DNA of 64,000 bases from Sphingopyxis sp. LC81 (GTDB lineage: Bacteria; Pseudomonadota; Alphaproteobacteria; Sphingomonadales; Sphingomonadaceae). A program made the translations under genes and the position numbers. The notes under the pieces are model-generated. The model saw only the letters and a list, made by a program, of their open reading frames with translations, ran no database searches and had not been told where the DNA came from. The DNA lies in contig NZ_JNFD01000011.1 of NCBI RefSeq assembly GCF_000756375.1, positions 186,001 through 250,000 on the forward strand, given 5' to 3'. Below are positions 1 through 7,670 of this stretch, piece after piece (position 1 is the first letter of the stretch; the number at the start of each line of letters is the position of its first letter).

Positions 1-2
1 CC

Positions 3-644
3 CGCGACATCATCGCCGCCAATGTCACCGACCTGCTTGACCGGGCCGAAGACCCCGAAAAGATGATCCGCCAGATCATCTTCGAGATGAACGAAACGCT
101 CGTCGAAGTTCGCGCCTCCGCCGCCCGCACGATCGCGGACCAGAAGGAAATGCGCCGCCACATCGCCAAGCTCGAAAGCCTGCAGGACAGCTGGAAGGAA
201 AAGGCCGAACTCGCGCTGTCGAAGGACCGCGAAGACCTCGCCACCGCCGCGCTTGTCGAAAAACAGAAGGCCGGCGACATGGCCGAGAAGCTCAAGGCCG
301 AGATCGCCGTCCTCGACGACGCGCTGACCGGTTACGAGGCCGACATCGCCAAGCTGCAGAAGAAGCTTTCGGAAGCCCGCGCGCGCCAGTCGAGCGTCGT
401 CAACCGCCTTGAAAGCGCCGAGAATCGCTACAAGCTGCGCGAGATGACCAACGGCGACCGGGTCGAAGACGCCTTCTCGCGCTTCGAGATCCTCGAACGC
501 CGCGTCGACGAAGCCGAAGGCCGCGCCGATGCGCTCAGCCTCGGTTACAAGAAGTCGCTCGACGAAGAGATCGCCGAACTGCAGGCCGCCGATAAGGTTG
601 CCGACGAACTCGCCGCGCTGAAGGCCGCGCAGGGCAAGCAGTAA
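3..644 (+). CDS. pspA: Phage shock protein A (5' end outside window)
   Basis: PspA/IM30 family peripheral membrane protein. It binds stressed inner membrane through amphipathic helices and oligomerises to maintain membrane integrity. The reading frame is open from base 3, starting with residues RDIIAANVTDLLDRAEDPEK, a standard PspA N-terminus just after the first few residues, so only a handful of codons are missing. The 213 visible residues are almost entirely charged coiled coil, rich in Glu, Lys, Ala and Arg, with no membrane segment, as expected for the family. pspB follows 12 nt downstream on the same strand, so this opens a psp operon. In enterobacteria PspA also inhibits the activator PspF. 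No pspF is visible here and could lie upstream. Identification is secure from sequence and context. Confidence 0.95.
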   Translation, partial: RDIIAANVTDLLDRAEDPEKMIRQIIFEMNETLVEVRASAARTIADQKEMRRHIAKLESLQDSWKEKAELALSKDREDLATAALVEKQKAGDMAEKLKAEIAVLDDALTGYEADIAKLQKKLSEARARQSSVVNRLESAENRYKLREMTNGDRVEDAFSRFEILERRVDEAEGRADALSLGYKKSLDEEIAELQAADKVADELAALKAAQGKQ

Positions 645-1347: not shown

Positions 1348-1647
1348 ATGAATTTCGGTGGCACCACTTTTGTCCTCGCCATCATCGCATTGTCGATCGG
1401 CGGCTGGATGTTCACCACCTGGATCCGCGCCAAGCACGGCTATCCCGTTGAGAATGAATGGGGCGGCACGGTTCATCGAACCGACCCCGACGCTGATCGA
1501 AAAATCGCCCTGCTGACCGATGACAACGCCAAGCTGGCGGGGCAGGTCAGCCGGCTGGAAGAGCGGATTTCGGTGCTCGAACGCATCGCGACCGAAAATA
1601 ATGGTCAGGCGGCGGAGCTCGCCAGCCAGATCGACCGCCTGCGCTGA
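1348..1647 (+). CDS. PspB-like small membrane protein, paralogue 1
   Basis: A 99-aa protein with one N-terminal membrane segment (about residues 7-26), then a juxtamembrane block RAKHGYPVENEWGG and a C-terminal amphipathic helix with RLEERISVLERIATE and a final QIDRLR. The C-terminal cassette matches PspB (RLENRLHTVERII) and the four following genes. It sits 30 nt after pspC with a GGGAGGAAGA ribosome site. It closely resembles the next protein (both have TTW-I/L-R-x-K-x-GYP-x-EN-x-WG), so the two look like a tandem duplication. Function is not known. From context it is probably an additional PspB-type sensor or partner of PspA/PspC at the inner membrane. Confidence 0.85.
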   Translation: MNFGGTTFVLAIIALSIGGWMFTTWIRAKHGYPVENEWGGTVHRTDPDADRKIALLTDDNAKLAGQVSRLEERISVLERIATENNGQAAELASQIDRLR

Positions 1648-1660
1648 GAGGATAGAAGCA

Positions 1661-1978
1661 ATGGAACTCGACCTTCTGAACGCCATCGCCCCCGTGGTCG
1701 CCGTTGTCGGCCTGGCCGGGGTCGCAGGCTGGGTCTTCACCACCTGGCTCCGCGTCAAGAACGGCTATCCGCTCGAAAACAGCTGGGGCAAGGCGGTTTA
1801 CCCCAAGACCAGCGACGAGGCGATGGAACGCGTCAAGCTGATCAGCCAGGAAAATGCCCAGCTGCGCGCCGAACTCGGTTCGGTGAAGGATCGCCTCGCG
1901 GTGATCGAGCGCATCGTCACCGACGAGAGCCACCGGCTGAGCCACGAGATCGAAGCGCTGCGGCGCCCCTCGAACTAA
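1661..1978 (+). CDS. PspB-like small membrane protein, paralogue 2
   Basis: A 105-aa protein. A hydrophobic segment (about residues 6-30) leads into a TTWLRVKNGYPLENSWGK block, then a coiled-coil tail carrying RLAVIERIVTDES and ending HEIEALRRPSN. The ATG at 1661 was chosen because it follows AGAGGATAGAAGCA directly downstream of the previous stop. A longer frame back to 1520 would overlap paralogue 1. It is most similar to paralogue 1 and shares the C-terminal cassette with the rest of the cluster. No enzymatic motif is visible. Likely inner-membrane, tail in the cytoplasm, co-expressed with pspABC. Confidence 0.85.
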   Translation: MELDLLNAIAPVVAVVGLAGVAGWVFTTWLRVKNGYPLENSWGKAVYPKTSDEAMERVKLISQENAQLRAELGSVKDRLAVIERIVTDESHRLSHEIEALRRPSN

Positions 1979-2001
1979 GCGCCGAACTGAGAGGAACGAA
2001 C

Positions 2002-2265
2002 ATGGAAGTCATCTTCATTCTCGCCATCGTCGTCGGACTGCCCGTCACCTTGGCCATCGGCTATGCCGCTTATGAGCGGACCTTGAAATTCAAGGAAAAG
2101 CAGTTCCAGGCGATCACGCACGAAACCGCCGAAAAGGCCGCGCAATATGCGGCGCAAACCGAACGGCTGGAGGCGCGCGTCCGCGTTCTCGAGCGCATCG
2201 TTACCGACAAGGGAATTGATGTCGCCGACGAGATCGAAAAACTGCGCGACGCCCCGCTGAACTAA
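2002..2265 (+). CDS. PspB-like small membrane protein, paralogue 3
   Basis: An 87-aa protein that begins directly with a hydrophobic segment (about residues 2-22), followed by a charged linker and the cassette RLEARVRVLERIVTDKG, ending EIEKLRDAPLN. It lacks the GYP-x-EN block of paralogues 1 and 2 and looks more like classical PspB in length and layout. A GAGAGGAACGAAC ribosome site precedes the ATG. It is the sixth gene of the psp operon. Function is inferred only from similarity and position. Confidence 0.85.
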   Translation: MEVIFILAIVVGLPVTLAIGYAAYERTLKFKEKQFQAITHETAEKAAQYAAQTERLEARVRVLERIVTDKGIDVADEIEKLRDAPLN

Positions 2266-2296
2266 AAAACAAAGATATACGGAAAGGAACCTCCCC

Positions 2297-2560
2297 ATGG
2301 GCCCGTTTGAAATGGTTGTCGGCATCGTCCTGATCGTGACCATCGGCAGCATTATTCGCGCCAAGCACGGCATCCGCCGCGATCACAAGGGCGGCGAATA
2401 TTTCGTCGCCACCGACAATGGCGAGACCAAGGCGCTGCAAGCCGAAATCCGCGCGCTCAAAGAGCGGATCCAGGTGCTCGAACGCATCGCCACCGATCAC
2501 AACCGCGCGGTCACGCTCGATCAGGAAATCGAGAAATTGCGCGACAACAGCAAAATCTGA
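2297..2560 (+). CDS. PspB-like small membrane protein, paralogue 4
   Basis: An 87-aa protein: short N-terminal membrane segment (about residues 4-20), then IIRAKHGIRRDHKGGEYF, which echoes the RAKHGYP block of paralogue 1, then RALKERIQVLERIATDH and a final QEIEKLRDNSKI. An AAAGGAACC ribosome site lies upstream. The cassette is nearly identical in pattern to paralogue 3 (VLERI-A/V-TD, EIEKLRD). This argues for repeated gene duplication inside the operon. No known domain other than PspB-like architecture is recognised. Confidence 0.85.
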   Translation: MGPFEMVVGIVLIVTIGSIIRAKHGIRRDHKGGEYFVATDNGETKALQAEIRALKERIQVLERIATDHNRAVTLDQEIEKLRDNSKI

Positions 2561-2583
2561 ATGCCGGAAAAGGAGCAACGCTC

Positions 2584-2832
2584 ATGGCTTTCATCACCCC
2601 CGACCTTACCGCTGCGGCCATCGCGCTCACCGCGCTGAGCATCGTCAGCCTGGTCGCGCTGCGCGGCTGGCGCGACTGGATCCAGCTCAAGCGCGACGAA
2701 CTCGCCGCGGGCCACCACGCGCCGCTGGCGCAGGATCCGGGCGTCCCGCACGCGGGGTCGCGGATCGAGATCGCCGACCTCAAGGAACGGCTGCGCAAGC
2801 TCGAAGCCATCGCGGCGGGGGTCGACCTCTAA
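2584..2832 (+). CDS. PspB-like small membrane protein, paralogue 5 (most divergent)
   Basis: An 82-aa protein with a hydrophobic segment (about residues 7-26), a basic WRDWIQLKRDE stretch and a short tail with DLKERLRKLEAIAAGVDL. The tail keeps the KERL-x-x-LE-x-I core but stops before the EI-x-x-LR end found in its neighbours, so the cassette is shortened. An AAAAGGAGCAACGCTC ribosome site precedes the ATG. It is the last gene of the psp cluster and is followed by a strong hairpin at 2854-2909 that probably ends the transcript. Confidence 0.8.
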   Translation: MAFITPDLTAAAIALTALSIVSLVALRGWRDWIQLKRDELAAGHHAPLAQDPGVPHAGSRIEIADLKERLRKLEAIAAGVDL

Positions 2833-2962: not shown

Positions 2963-3373
2963 ATGCGCAGCCTGACCGACATCTTCGACGAATATGATTT
3001 TCTCGACGGCGACGATCGCTATCGTCTGCTGATCGACCTCGGCCGGACGCTCGAGCCGATGCCCGACGCGCTCAAGACCGACGCGACAATGGTGCGCGGT
3101 TGTTCGGCCAGCGTCTGGGTCTATCCCGTGCCGCGCGACGATGGCCAGCTCCATTTCCTCGCCGACAGCAACGCCGCGATCACCAAGGGGATCGTCGCGC
3201 TCGTGCTTTCGGCGGTGCAGGACAAACCCGCGGCCGAAGTCGCCGACATGGACGTCGCGGCGGCGCTCGCCCCCTTCGACCTCACGCGCCAGCTGTCGTC
3301 GAACCGGACGCAGGGCGTCCCCAACATGATCGCGCTGGTGCAGGCCACCGCGCGGCGGATTGCCGCGGGCTGA
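2963..3373 (+). CDS. sufE: SufE family cysteine desulfurase accessory protein
   Basis: A 136-aa SufE-type protein. SufE accepts persulfide sulfur from the cysteine desulfurase SufS and passes it to the SufBCD scaffold for Fe-S cluster assembly. The sulfur-acceptor cysteine is visible in MVRGCSASVWVY (Cys48), followed by the typical GD/ADSNAAITKGIVALV segment. The end (LSSNRTQGVPNMIALV) is also family-typical. Length matches the family. No other suf gene is in the window, so it is encoded apart from the main suf operon. It stands between the psp hairpin and a convergent TonB receptor gene. Confidence 0.92.
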   Translation: MRSLTDIFDEYDFLDGDDRYRLLIDLGRTLEPMPDALKTDATMVRGCSASVWVYPVPRDDGQLHFLADSNAAITKGIVALVLSAVQDKPAAEVADMDVAAALAPFDLTRQLSSNRTQGVPNMIALVQATARRIAAG

Positions 3374-3472: not shown

Positions 3473-6127
3473 TTAGAAAGCGACGGTGATCGTGCCGCTG
3501 ATCGTGCGCGGCGCGCCGATCTGGACGTTCGGAACCGAACCCGGCGCGCCGAGGAAGGTGCCGGCGCCGAGGACGTTGCCCTGGTTCAGGCCCGACGTGT
3601 ACTTGCCGACATAAAGCGTGTCGAACAGGTTGTAGACGTTGAGCTGGAAGAAGGTCTTGTCGCCCAGACCCGCCCATTCGAGGCCCAGGCGGGCGTCGAG
3701 GTTGACCAGCCAATAGGCGTTGGTCTGGGCCGGATAGAGGACCGTCGGCGCGGCGGCGGTGCCGCCCATGACCGGCAGGTTCGTGTCATAGATGTACCGG
3801 CCGCTCGAACGCTTGGCGGTGATGCCGAGTTCGACCGGGCCCAGCGTGCCGCGGGCCGAACCGCCGAAGGTATACTTCGGAGCGCCCGATTCGCGGTTGC
3901 CGGCGGTCGCGACGAAGATCGGCTGGCCGACCGTGGTGCAGCCTGCCAGATTGCCGGTGACCTGCGCCTGGGTGCATTCGCCGGCCTGGATGTCGTCCTT
4001 GATCTTCGACTTCATCCACGAACCGAAGACATAGAGCGACACTTCGGGGATCGGCGAATAGGCGACGCTGCCGTCGATACCATATTTGTCGACGCGGCCG
4101 AGGTTGCGATAGACGTTGCGATCGGTGTCGGGATCATAGGCCGAGGCCAGGCGATCGTTATACTTGGTGAACCAGCCCGAAACCTGCGCCTGGATCTGGC
4201 TCGACCGGTAACGAACGCCCAGGTCGAAGTTATCCGACGTTTCGGGGTTCGGCTTGGCCGACGGCGTGTTCGGCGCGAAGAAGAAGGAGTTGTACAGCGA
4301 GTCGGTGCCCGGAACCTGCAGACCCTTCGAATAGTTGGCGAACACCGAGGTGCGGGTGCCGAACTTGTACACCAGGCCGACGTTCGGCAGGATGTCGTCA
4401 TACTTCAGCACGCGCTGCTGCGGACCCTGAACCGTCGGGTTGGCGGCCTGATAGGGGACGCTCTGTGCTTCGCTGAGGCAGTCGAGGTTGCCCGATTCGT
4501 TGGTCGTGAAGCAATAGTTGTTCAGGTCGCGCTTGAAGAAAGGCGCACGGATACCGAGCGTGGTGACGAGGTTGCCGTCGAGGAACTCGCCGCGATATTC
4601 ACCCGAAACCTGCGTCAGGATGGCGTAGGACAGGCGGTTACGCTTCTGCACGGCGACGCCGTTGGCGTCGAACAGCGGATCGTTGACGGGGAACACGTCG
4701 AAGGGTTCGCCGTTGAACTGAACCGGCATCAGTTCGCCGGTCTGACGGTGACGCGCACGGTCATAGGTGAAGCCGGCGCGGACCGTGTGGCCTTCGGCGA
4801 TGTCCCAGCGCAGGTTGGCGATCACGCCATAACGGTGCGTCTGCGTCTGGCTTGGCGCCAGCAGCGTCACACCGGCGAAGGGGACGTTGGTCGCCGACGC
4901 GGTCGAGCTGCATGCCTGGCCGGCGGTGCCGCCGGTGCGGCAGGTGTCGAGCACATCGCCGTCGCCGTTGAGGTCACGGCCGAAATAATAGTTGCCGCCG
5001 ATGAAGCCGGTGTAGTTGACGCCGCCGATCGTACGGAAGCCTTCGCGGCCGGTGACGGTGCCGCCGCCGTTCGCCTTCACATATTGATAGCTGGGGTCGA
5101 TGGTCAGGACGACGCCTTCGGCCAGCGTGAACTTCGACGAACCGCGGATGTTGCCGGTGTTCGACGGGTTGTAACGACGGTCGAATTCGGTGCCGCAGGT
5201 GTTGGTCACGTCCTGCGCGCCGGCGCTCGGTGCGTCGGTCTGGCACGGATAGTTGATGTTATATTCGCGCTCGTCGTTGTTGAACGGGAAGCGGTTGCCC
5301 GAACCCGAACCGACGACGCGGTTGGCGTCGAGGCGCAGCGGCACCGAGCCGAAGAAGTTGGTGCGGTTCTCGTTATAATGGCCGGCAACCGACACGAAGT
5401 CGCCGTCGCTGCCGATCGGCTGATAGAGACGCGCGTTGAACTGCTTCTTGCGGACGCGGCCATAGTTGTTGAACGGGTTGTCGTTCGAGGTCGACGAGGC
5501 CGAGAGGAAGGCGCGCGTGCCGAACGGCGTGAAAGCGCCGGTGTTGACGAGGCCGAAGAGGCGGAAGAATTTGAACTCGCCCGCCGAACCCGACACCCGG
5601 ACGCCGAAATCTTCGGTCGGAACGATGGTGCGATAGTTGACCGTCGAACCCGAGGCCGCGGCGGTCGGGCTGTCGACGTCGGTCGAGCCGAGGTTGACGT
5701 TGACCTGTTCGATCAGCTCGGGATCGAGCTGCTGGTTCGAATAGACGGCATAGTTGCCCGAATCGTTGAGCGGCACGCCGTCGAAGGTCAGGCTGATGCG
5801 GTCTTCCGAGAAACCACGGATCGTCAGCTGGCCGCCCGACGAGCCATAGGCGTCGTTGTTGGTGAAGTTGACGCCCGGGATCAGGTTGATCGTGTCGAGG
5901 ATCGTCTGGCCGGGGTTCTGGCGCGAGATGATTTCCTGGTTCAGGACCGACTTGGCCTTCGACGTGTCGGGCGATGCGATGCCGGCGACGTCGGTCGAGG
6001 ACGAACCGGTGACGACGATTTCCTCGTCGAAATCGACCGAGCCGGTCGACTGGGCGAAGGCGGGCGTGGAAAGCAGCGCGACCGGAATCAGCGCAACGCT
6101 GGCAGCGAGCGTGTGACGGAATTTCAT
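3473..6127 (-). CDS. TonB-dependent outer-membrane receptor
   Basis: An 884-aa TonB-dependent receptor. It imports an unidentified substrate through a 22-strand beta barrel gated by an N-terminal plug and powered by TonB/ExbBD. A signal peptide covers residues 1-25 (cleavage after TPAFA). A TonB box, EEIVVTG, lies at about 35-41, then the plug domain with GGQLTIRGF and the barrel. The protein ends in GTITVAF, with the terminal Phe required for outer-membrane insertion. I chose the ATG at 6127 because the signal peptide starts there. The open frame extends to 6268 without signal-like sequence. Extracellular loops contain Cys pairs and a DLNGDGD calcium-loop-like motif near base 4965. Substrate cannot be told from sequence. 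Two TGTCACAA motifs lie about 95-115 nt upstream. Confidence 0.93.
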   Translation of the reverse strand: MKFRHTLAASVALIPVALLSTPAFAQSTGSVDFDEEIVVTGSSSTDVAGIASPDTSKAKSVLNQEIISRQNPGQTILDTINLIPGVNFTNNDAYGSSGGQLTIRGFSEDRISLTFDGVPLNDSGNYAVYSNQQLDPELIEQVNVNLGSTDVDSPTAAASGSTVNYRTIVPTEDFGVRVSGSAGEFKFFRLFGLVNTGAFTPFGTRAFLSASSTSNDNPFNNYGRVRKKQFNARLYQPIGSDGDFVSVAGHYNENRTNFFGSVPLRLDANRVVGSGSGNRFPFNNDEREYNINYPCQTDAPSAGAQDVTNTCGTEFDRRYNPSNTGNIRGSSKFTLAEGVVLTIDPSYQYVKANGGGTVTGREGFRTIGGVNYTGFIGGNYYFGRDLNGDGDVLDTCRTGGTAGQACSSTASATNVPFAGVTLLAPSQTQTHRYGVIANLRWDIAEGHTVRAGFTYDRARHRQTGELMPVQFNGEPFDVFPVNDPLFDANGVAVQKRNRLSYAILTQVSGEYRGEFLDGNLVTTLGIRAPFFKRDLNNYCFTTNESGNLDCLSEAQSVPYQAANPTVQGPQQRVLKYDDILPNVGLVYKFGTRTSVFANYSKGLQVPGTDSLYNSFFFAPNTPSAKPNPETSDNFDLGVRYRSSQIQAQVSGWFTKYNDRLASAYDPDTDRNVYRNLGRVDKYGIDGSVAYSPIPEVSLYVFGSWMKSKIKDDIQAGECTQAQVTGNLAGCTTVGQPIFVATAGNRESGAPKYTFGGSARGTLGPVELGITAKRSSGRYIYDTNLPVMGGTAAAPTVLYPAQTNAYWLVNLDARLGLEWAGLGDKTFFQLNVYNLFDTLYVGKYTSGLNQGNVLGAGTFLGAPGSVPNVQIGAPRTISGTITVAF

Positions 6128-6219
6128 TACTGGATGTCCCCTATGGTGGTACGTTCGGCAGGCGCCCGAATGGGGCGCGCCTGACCTGCGAGCGCCCCTG
6201 AAGCCCGCATGTGGCACGA

Positions 6220-6239
6220 TTGTGACAGCAATTGTGACA
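6220..6239 (-). promoter_or_regulatory. Tandem TGTCACAA motifs upstream of the TonB receptor
   Basis: Read on the minus strand, TGTCACAA occurs twice, at 6232-6239 and 6220-6227, with a 12-nt period. The same 8-mer occurs three times upstream of the exported protein gene and ahcY at 47930-48039. Direct-repeat spacing suggests a response-regulator binding site. Which regulator is unknown. Confidence 0.45.
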
Positions 6240-6310
6240 GTGCAAGCGGGGAGGGGCGCGCGGTTCACAGGAGGGTGAAAAAAGCGCGAATTTCCGTCAT
6301 GCGCCCGGAA

Positions 6311-6319
6311 TTATCCACA
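6311..6319 (+). promoter_or_regulatory. Single perfect DnaA box
   Basis: TTATCCACA at 6311-6319 is the exact DnaA-box consensus. It is isolated, in the gap between the TonB receptor gene and the clpX terminator, with no AT-rich unwinding element or further boxes nearby. It is more likely a chance or regulatory site than part of an origin. Confidence 0.35.
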
Positions 6320-6368
6320 GGCGCCAGTGCGTTTTTTCCTAAAACTGTTGCTGCAATGCAACATAAAA

Positions 6369-6388
6369 GGGCGCCCCGAAGGGCGCCC
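6369..6388 (-). terminator. clpX rho-independent terminator
   Basis: The perfect 8-bp stem GGGCGCCC (6369-6376 with 6381-6388) has a CGAA loop. On the minus strand it is followed by UUUU (plus-strand AAAA at 6365-6368). It lies 11 nt past the clpX stop. Confidence 0.85.
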
Positions 6389-6398
6389 CATGTGCGAC

Positions 6399-7670
6399 TC
6401 AGGCGGCGTCGCCCGCGGCTTCCTTCGCCTTGTCGGCATAGACGCGCACCGGATCCTTGCGGCCTTCGACGACATCCTTGTCGACGACGATCTCGACCAC
6501 GTCGGTGAGGTCGGGCAGGTCGAACATCGTGTCGAGCAGGATCGCCTCGACGATCGAGCGCAGCCCGCGCGCGCCGGTCTTGCGTTCGATCGCCTTCTTG
6601 GCGACCGCGATCAGCGCATCGTCGGTAAAGGTCAGCACGACCTCCTCGAGATCGAAGAGCTTGCGATACTGCTTTACCAGCGCGTTCTTGGGCTCGCCCA
6701 AAATCTTGACCAGCGCGTCGATGTCGAGATCCTCGAGCGTCGCGATGACCGGCAGGCGGCCGACGAATTCGGGGATCAGGCCGAACTTCAGCAGATCCTC
6801 GGGCTCGATATTTTTCAGCACTTCGCCCATGCGGCGCTCGTCGGGGCCCGCGACATGCGCGCCGAAACCGATCGACTTGCCTTGCAGGCGGTCGCCGATG
6901 ATCTTTTCGAGGCCGCTGAACGCGCCGCCCGCGATGAACAGGATGTTCGTCGTGTCGACCTGCAGGAATTCCTGCTGCGGATGCTTGCGCCCGCCCTGCG
7001 GCGGAACGCTCGCGGTCGTGCCTTCCATCAGCTTGAGCAAAGCCTGCTGCACGCCTTCGCCCGACACGTCGCGCGTGATCGAGGGATTCTCGGCCTTGCG
7101 CGAGATTTTATCGATTTCGTCGATATAGACGATGCCGCGCTGCGCCTTTTCGACATTATAGTCGGACGACTGCAGCAGCTTGAGGATGATATTCTCGACA
7201 TCCTCGCCGACATAGCCGGCTTCGGTCAGCGTCGTCGCATCGGCCATCGTGAAGGGCACGTCGAGGAAGCGCGCGAGCGTCTGCGCGAGCAAAGTCTTGC
7301 CGCTGCCCGTCGGGCCGACGAGCAGGATGTTCGACTTCGCGAGTTCGACGTCGTCGCCGCGGCCGCTGTTCGCGAGGCGCTTGTAGTGATTGTGCACCGC
7401 GACCGACAGCACGCGCTTGGCGGTGTTCTGGCCGATGACATAGGCGTCGAGATGCTGGCAGATTTCCAGCGGCGTCGGCACCGCGCCATCCTTGCGCGCG
7501 GCGATCCCGCCCTTGATCTCTTCGCGGATGATGTCGTTGCACAGCTCGACGCATTCGTCGCAGATGAACACGGTCGGCCCGGCAATCAGCTTGCGGACTT
7601 CGTGCTGCGACTTGCCGCAGAAGGAGCAGTAAAGGGTGCTCTTGCTGTCCGAGCCACTCAATTTCGTCAT
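6399..7670 (-). CDS. clpX: ATP-dependent Clp protease ATP-binding subunit ClpX
   Basis: A 423-aa AAA+ unfoldase that recognises, unfolds and feeds substrates into ClpP. The N-terminal zinc-binding domain has Cys15, Cys18, Cys37 and Cys40. The AAA+ core shows Walker A GPTGSGKT (119-126), Walker B VYIDEID (181-187), pore loop GYVG (152-155), the RKH loop (228-230) and the ClpP-docking IGF loop (267-269). Length matches the family. It lies downstream of clpP on the same strand, 169 nt away, so the pair may be co-transcribed or have separate promoters. In alphaproteobacteria ClpXP degrades the cell-cycle regulator CtrA. Its own terminator follows. Confidence 0.99.

Follow-up and report, generated by a model that had tools for sequence, protein, structure and literature searches.

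An ordered array of small membrane-protein genes behind pspB and pspC in sphingomonads and its possible part in the Psp stress switch

In the Psp response to membrane stress, the release of PspA is decided by PspB and PspC, a mechanism known mainly from enterobacteria. The C-terminal cytoplasmic domain of PspC binds PspA in the on state, according to the accessible part of PMC5596341, and PMC3068692, likewise accessible in part, reports that a putative leucine zipper in E. coli PspC is required for PspA binding. Duplicates of PspB occur in some psp operons (e.g. AOL22920.1), as stated in one sentence of the available text of PMC11237479, which also says that PspC can bear a divergent C-terminal PspB and gives PspD only for Gammaproteobacteria. 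The Zymomonas genes ZMO1062-1065, labelled pspD/A/B/C, are up in xylose medium (PMC8645129, in part), a PspC is listed in a table (PMC5443232, in part), and the accessible portion of PMC9239133 makes no mention of arrays in the sphingomonad family.

The psp operon of Sphingopyxis sp. LC81 carries five additional small genes behind pspC, called x1-x5 below. It shares with the duplicates of PMC11237479 the presence of more than one PspB-type gene per operon, and the two are probably, at least in part, the same phenomenon, whereas the published account, in its available text, is without classes, order, PspC-like tails and x5. PspB duplicates are already in print; the ordered array, the PspC-like tails and the x5 operon are new as far as the literature searched, in which no description of them was found and which left most subscription journals out of reach. 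The PspB of pspFABC operons (PF06667, TIGR02976) resembles the extras in being small, with one N-terminal membrane helix, a helical tail and a gene near pspC, and x1, x3 and x4 match outgroup PspB in sequence along helix and tail. Unlike PspB, the extras score below the curated cut-offs and occur several per operon, and where PspB ends in ADNPDW(R), they end in EIExLR (exceptions below), as PspC of the sphingomonad family does. The tail of PspC (TIGR02978) is recognisable in x2, and x1-x4 match family PspC mainly there, but the extras are without the PspC domain and carry the tail on a membrane helix of their own. In another alphaproteobacterial family (loci L089 and L090), pspC is likewise followed by short genes for membrane proteins of the PspB and PspC-tail types, but only two of them. 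The first encodes 78-80 aa with a PspC-type tail and lacks a full PspC domain match (L089 2950-3186, L090 3326-3568, reading strand); the second is PspB-like and reaches 41.7 bits (G371), under the cut-off of 51.7 yet above every extra of LC81.

The psp operon of Sphingopyxis sp. LC81

The window, a stretch of 64,000 nucleotides of contig NZ_JNFD01000011.1, opens within pspA (1-644, plus strand), which is truncated there, with its ATG 19 bases upstream of position 1; the complete gene of 220 aa occupies 5983-6645 of the LC81 locus (L035). On the same strand follow pspB (657-935; PF06667 E 3.4e-28, above cut-off; TIGR02976 91.2 bits) and pspC (937-1317; PF04024 E 2.1e-15; TIGR02978 118.3 bits, above cut-off), the product of which has a C-terminal helical tail ending in EIDALR. 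Directly behind them stand five intact plus-strand ORFs in series: x1 (1348-1647, 99 aa), x2 (1661-1978, 105 aa), x3 (2002-2265, 87 aa), x4 (2297-2560, 87 aa) and x5 (2584-2832, 82 aa), the last assigned to a class of its own. The gaps, starting with pspC-x1, measure 30, 13, 23, 31 and 23 nt; ahead of each of the five genes is a purine-rich stretch resembling a ribosome site. An inverted repeat with 30-nt arms (2848-2915, no strand assigned), a possible operon boundary, separates x5 from a plus-strand sufE-like gene (2963-3373; PF02657 E 2.7e-33), a constant downstream neighbour left outside the array count.

All five products have an N-terminal hydrophobic segment (hydropathy computed for x1-x4, read from the sequence for x5) and a tail. 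The first two have a GYPxENxWG block in common (GYPVENEWG in x1, GYPLENSWG in x2). The tails of x1-x4 carry the motif R-[IV]-x-V-L-E-R-I-x-T-[DE] (R-L-A-V-I-E-R-I-V-T-D in x2), followed by EIExLR in x2-x4 and by QIDRLR in x1, while the tail of x5, LKERLRKLEAIAAGVDL, has neither T-D nor EIxxLR. An earlier note made from the sequence had placed five tandem genes after pspABC at 1348-2832, each with one N-terminal membrane segment and the first two sharing the GYP block, all of which is correct; the C-terminal motif with EIxxLR that it ascribed to all five is found in x1-x4 and not in x5. Absent from it was the resemblance of the PspC tail to those of x1-x4. For x2, AlphaFold2 predicts a membrane helix at 2-34 and a long helix at 52-101 (mean pLDDT 82, pTM 0.37), with low confidence across the GYPLENSWG block. 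Neither for PspC nor for PspB did we find a convincing solved structural relative.

Kinship and distribution of the extra genes

Taken singly, the window extras reach at best 20.9 bits against the NCBIfam PspB model (cut-off 51.7) and 17.7 against the Pfam model (cut-off 25.6), and all five stay under the curated cut-offs. In the whole 4.4-Mb genome, however, the PspB profile at E <= 10 matches pspB, x3, x4 and x1 and nothing else, only pspB lying above the cut-off, which places the likeness beyond chance. The PspC domain (PF04024) has no match in x1-x5 at E <= 1, and the TIGR02978 matches of window x2 and x3 fall within model positions 58-121, from the second half onward, with x2 at 72-121, in the tail. 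No match named PspD was obtained for x1-x5 (Pfam and NCBIfam, E <= 1; the presence of a PspD model in either library is unconfirmed).

Class alignments of 22, 21, 20, 19 and 23 rows for x1 to x5, representing part of the members found in 40 loci, allowed a more sensitive comparison. When members were scanned against NCBIfam at E <= 0.01, the PspC TIGR02978 tail was matched by 18 of 21 x2 members; among x3 members PspB and PspC were each matched by 13 of 20, and among x4 members by 9 and 4 of 19, respectively. In profile-profile comparison x1-x4 match one another at E 1.8e-14 to 1.8e-33. Outgroup profiles, built from PspB and the PspC tail of other alphaproteobacterial families, separate them: PspB matches x1, x3 and x4 over membrane helix and tail (E 3.2e-7, 9.8e-7 and 1.7e-7) and x2 in the tail only (3.1e-5), and the PspC tail matches x2 at 4.9e-6 and x1, x3 and x4 at 7.8e-5, 3.1e-4 and 4.3e-4. 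Sphingomonad-family PspC matches x1-x4 at E 2.8e-6, 3.5e-7, 1.2e-5 and 1.6e-5, mainly in the tail, and family PspB at 5.3e-4, 9.9e-5, 3.9e-6 and 0.0062. For comparison, the strongest match of any x protein to the PspA (38 rows) and SufE controls has E 0.0026 (x4 with PspA), and reversed profiles give 0.0074 or weaker. Median scores against outgroup PspB are 11.0, 6.9, 14.8 and 10.9 bits for x1 to x4, compared with a maximum of 3.9 bits among 1479 background ORFs.

As judged from these sequence comparisons, x1-x4 are one family, remotely akin both to PspB and to the PspC tail; a distant relationship of x1, x3 and x4 to PspB is supported, as is the position of x2 nearest to the PspC tail. Since PspB and PspC tails have no clear match to each other (E 0.0063 for PspB with the PspC tail of the outgroup, 0.2 for PspC with outgroup PspB, and a PspB-PspC profile match of E 2.8e-4 that covers membrane stretches, not tails), we infer a single common tail family only through x1-x4. 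Two other assignments were rejected. Describing all extras as detached PspC tails fails, because with outgroup profiles the PspC tail fits better in 34 of 36 x2 proteins but in only 9 of 43 x1, 6 of 44 x3 and 3 of 41 x4. Unrelated families (TolA-binding, bZIP, FtsL, Npun_F5560 and others) were below cut-off where a cut-off was printed and weak in the class scans.

The fifth protein stands apart. Its profile matches x3 (E 7.7e-7) and x4 (5.1e-6), but none of 23 members has a Psp family match (NCBIfam, E <= 0.01), its outgroup E-values (0.016 for PspB, 0.0036 for the PspC tail) are on par with the controls, and its median against outgroup PspB, 3.0 bits, lies below the background maximum; x5 as a PspB is not supported. 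Its genomic context is more telling. Both places were listed for 39 family genomes; in 35 of them x5 and pspB are no more than 3 kb apart, and in the other 4 x5 is located elsewhere (hand count). All six loci examined with x5 away from pspB (L208-L213) show a second psp operon of the order pspA2-pspC2-x5, with x5 last, and none of the six stretches contains a PspB match. They come from genomes with two genus codes (G145, G077, G197 and G053, together with G574 and G583, which carry the same code as G145, G077 and G197), and the frames touch or overlap in L209, L211 and L213; G129, with the genus code of G053, has a psp array that lacks x5. The pspA2-pspC2 setting gives the best functional pointer we have: x5 accompanies PspC and PspA and needs no adjacent PspB.

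A relative of x1 is present in 161 of 199 genomes of the sphingomonad family as defined by GTDB (E <= 0.001) and PspB in 184 (E <= 1e-5). The two co-occur (both in 159, PspB only in 25, x1 only in 2, neither in 13; Fisher p 5e-9, hand count). In a class-wide sample of 289 genomes, PspB was found in 30 and x2 in 4 (E <= 1e-5), these 4 all belonging to the sphingomonad family, and x5 was found in 62 of 147 genomes of the order, again all of this family, with 2 family genomes lacking x5 among the rows listed. PspB occurs outside the family in 26 genomes of the class-wide sample; 19 of these loci were examined, and 16 have no further such gene behind pspC, while L089, L090 and L096 have extra short PspB- or PspC-type genes. 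Among the genomes sampled, the array is confined to one GTDB family, the sphingomonads.

Across loci, x1-x5 adjoin pspC within psp operons and usually keep their class order, with 0 to 7 extras per locus. Forty loci chosen from x1-positive genomes, and hence biased towards arrays, have 3 (one locus), 4 (10), 5 (17), 6 (9) or 7 (3) extras, with x5 in 39 and sufE downstream in 36. Named genomes were analysed for the best 80 of 375 confirmed x2 relatives, which come from Sphingopyxis, Sphingomonas, Sphingobium, Novosphingobium, Blastomonas, Sphingorhabdus, Rhizorhabdus and Chakrabartia, as well as from less closely named MAGs and isolates. The exact order pspB-pspC-x1-x2-x3-x4-x5 is seen in 44 of these 80 loci, and the number of extras is 3 in 2, 4 in 22, 5 in 45, 6 in 10 and 7 in one (in one locus a second pspB is included among the extras). 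Twelve loci drawn from the 25 PspB-positive, x1-negative genomes have 0 to 4 extras: x4 in 10, x5 in 9, x3 in 5, neither x1 nor x2 in any, and sufE in all 12. A tree of 202 proteins places PspB, x2 and x3 each on one side of a branch, while x1 and x4 require 6 and 4 changes, respectively; as the labels came from profiles and the columns are few, the tree is not independent of the classes. The x1-x5 classes seem to be older than the genera, with gains and losses since.

Comparison of the window with 27 near relatives, using the first gene of each class per locus, gave median pN/pS ratios of 0.07 for pspB, 0.075 for pspC, 0.18 for x1, 0.26 for x2, 0.32 for x3, 0.29 for x4 and 0.23 for x5, the highest single value being 0.70, in x3. 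The extra genes are under purifying selection and evolve faster than pspB and pspC. Of the three parts of each protein, that formed by the last 35 residues is conserved best in x3 and x5 and, by a small margin, in x1 and x4; in x2 it is the middle. Broken or silent copies were rejected, all five frames being open with median ratios well below 1.

The earlier note's expanded array of divergent paralogues is borne out by the genome search and synteny comparison that it had proposed. The array extends across the family, mostly keeps its order and is subject to purifying selection, and so neither a one-genome oddity nor frameshifted copies, which the note had named as grounds for refutation, is what we find. 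Its description of all five as PspB-like needs narrowing: profile comparison upholds it for x1, x3 and x4, whereas x2 is nearer to the PspC tail and x5 is not detectably PspB, and the likeness is weaker than claimed, yet above chance genome-wide.

Possible roles of x1-x5

We suggest, as a somewhat probable reading, that x1-x5 are additional single-pass subunits in the stress switch formed by PspB, PspC and PspA; co-transcription, topology, tail contacts and regulatory outcome are what we infer. This is supported by the grouping of x1-x4 in one family, by PspB and PspC-tail matches above controls, by the small gaps and ordered classes, by the co-occurrence of PspB and x1, by purifying selection, by pspA2-pspC2-x5 in six of six loci, and by the PspC-PspA contact in the accessible part of PMC5596341. 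Against it stand the PspB match in only one of 22 x1 members (NCBIfam, E <= 0.01), the strict sigma-54 pattern upstream of pspA in only 20 of 41 loci, an AlphaFold2 model of PspC too poor for use (mean pLDDT 60.5), and the periplasmic PspC C-terminus that the accessible text of PMC3068692 proposes for E. coli, where two topologies are discussed. The arrays are also dispensable, since one family locus is without extras and 25 of 184 PspB-bearing genomes are without an x1 match.

If the extras are switch subunits, x1-x4 would go back to ancient duplications within a family akin to PspB and the PspC tail, in effect placing a tail of the PspC kind on a separate membrane helix. The N-terminal helix would hold in the membrane a cytoplasmic helical tail of the kind used in PspB-PspC interplay and PspC-PspA binding. 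Made from the psp operon, x1-x4 would most likely associate with PspC and PspB inside the membrane and present alternative tails, and mixed oligomers are plausible in view of the related tails and the PspB-PspC-PspA contacts in print. Some tails may silence PspC as PspB does; others, above all that of x2, may dock PspA. In the simplest model the extras would enter the PspB-PspC complex by way of their helices and alter the division of the PspC tail between PspB (off) and PspA (on), and the number and mix of tails might then set how easily PspA moves from PspF to the membrane. The fifth protein would be a separate small PspC partner, able to sit in an operon without PspB. Tentatively, and with decidedly more doubt, we put forward a many-tailed Psp switch, in which ordered single-pass paralogues would either compete for a single coiled-coil site on PspC and PspA or act there in combination. 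The response would then be tuned by the composition of the array, and x5 would be a hitherto unrecognised subunit that replaces PspB in a second PspA-PspC system.

The conserved, ordered extra membrane genes suggest that in sphingomonads more parts interact in the membrane-stress switch than in its textbook version. Present throughout the family, the proteins offer natural variants for mapping which tail meets which partner, one of them occurring in the company of PspA and PspC with no PspB. If the reading is true, unnamed subunits, annotated as hypothetical proteins in NZ_CP155749, would be added to a widespread stress system.

Other roles can be imagined for the same proteins. They might be an effector scaffold that anchors PspA at many inner-membrane sites and raises repair capacity without regulating. 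As single-pass anchors with tails, encoded alongside PspA, they suit such a role, and their variable copy number and the position of x5 beside pspA2-pspC2 fit an anchor as well as a switch; kinship with PspB nevertheless points towards the regulatory pair, and we think the scaffold unlikely. Parallel sensing, as proposed in the earlier note, would have each paralogue read its own envelope signal and relay it to PspC or PspA. It would agree with old classes kept over many genera and with N-terminal halves that differ (in x2, x3 and x5 conservation is lower over the first 30 residues than over the last 35), but with N-out topology assumed, few residues lie beyond the membrane on the N-terminal side, leaving little room for a periplasmic sensing domain, and we regard this as quite improbable. 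It is very improbable that the extras are redundant copies under birth and death, retained mostly for dosage: although their number varies between 0 and 7, and x1 and x2 are absent from all 12 loci of PspB-bearing genomes without an x1 match, order and classes are conserved and pN/pS is 0.18-0.32. That they are unrelated membrane coiled-coil proteins merely sitting in the operon can hardly be credited, for although x4 members weakly match FtsL models (NF049847 in 4 of 19), other extras weakly match unrelated coiled-coil families and the sequence of x5 leaves room for such a reading, the PspB and PspC matches of x1-x4 are much stronger than those of the controls (reversed profiles, PspA and SufE), and the class medians of x1-x4 against outgroup PspB all exceed the background.

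Surroundings of the operon

The LC81 locus has the divergent activator and the -24/-12 site of a PspF/sigma-54-controlled psp operon. A pspF-like gene, resembling AAA+ activators as judged by eye, runs divergently at L035 4490-5527, and a sigma-54-type site, TGGCACGCCCTATGCA, lies before pspA at L035 5622-5637, where none is expected by chance; in NZ_CP155749 an annotated pspF occupies the corresponding place. Between this site and pspA, at L035 5701-5871 (roughly 300 to 130 bases upstream of the first window base), is a leader ORF of 56 aa with one hydrophobic stretch, which could be a further Psp component. Leader candidates of 45-94 aa pass a filter for a ribosome-site-like stretch and hydrophobicity, applied without a chance control, in 34 of 41 loci, and NZ_CP155749 has a 48-aa hypothetical protein annotated at this place.

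At the other end of the operon, the hairpin at 2848-2915 is long, GC-rich and strongly folding but has no T run; it is not among the terminators listed by a terminator scan, and among 32 loci folded a comparable stem was seen in L036 only. In one Sphingomonas parapaucimobilis strain (NZ_CP155749) the psp operon lies on an 880-kb megaplasmid and has, between the short genes and sufE, a gene for a 222-aa protein with a HEMTH motif, metallopeptidase-like by eye (L195 4815-5483). Three further loci have an additional PspC-like ORF of 62-64 aa between pspB and pspC (L050 1492-1680, L056 1379-1570 and L058 1527-1721).
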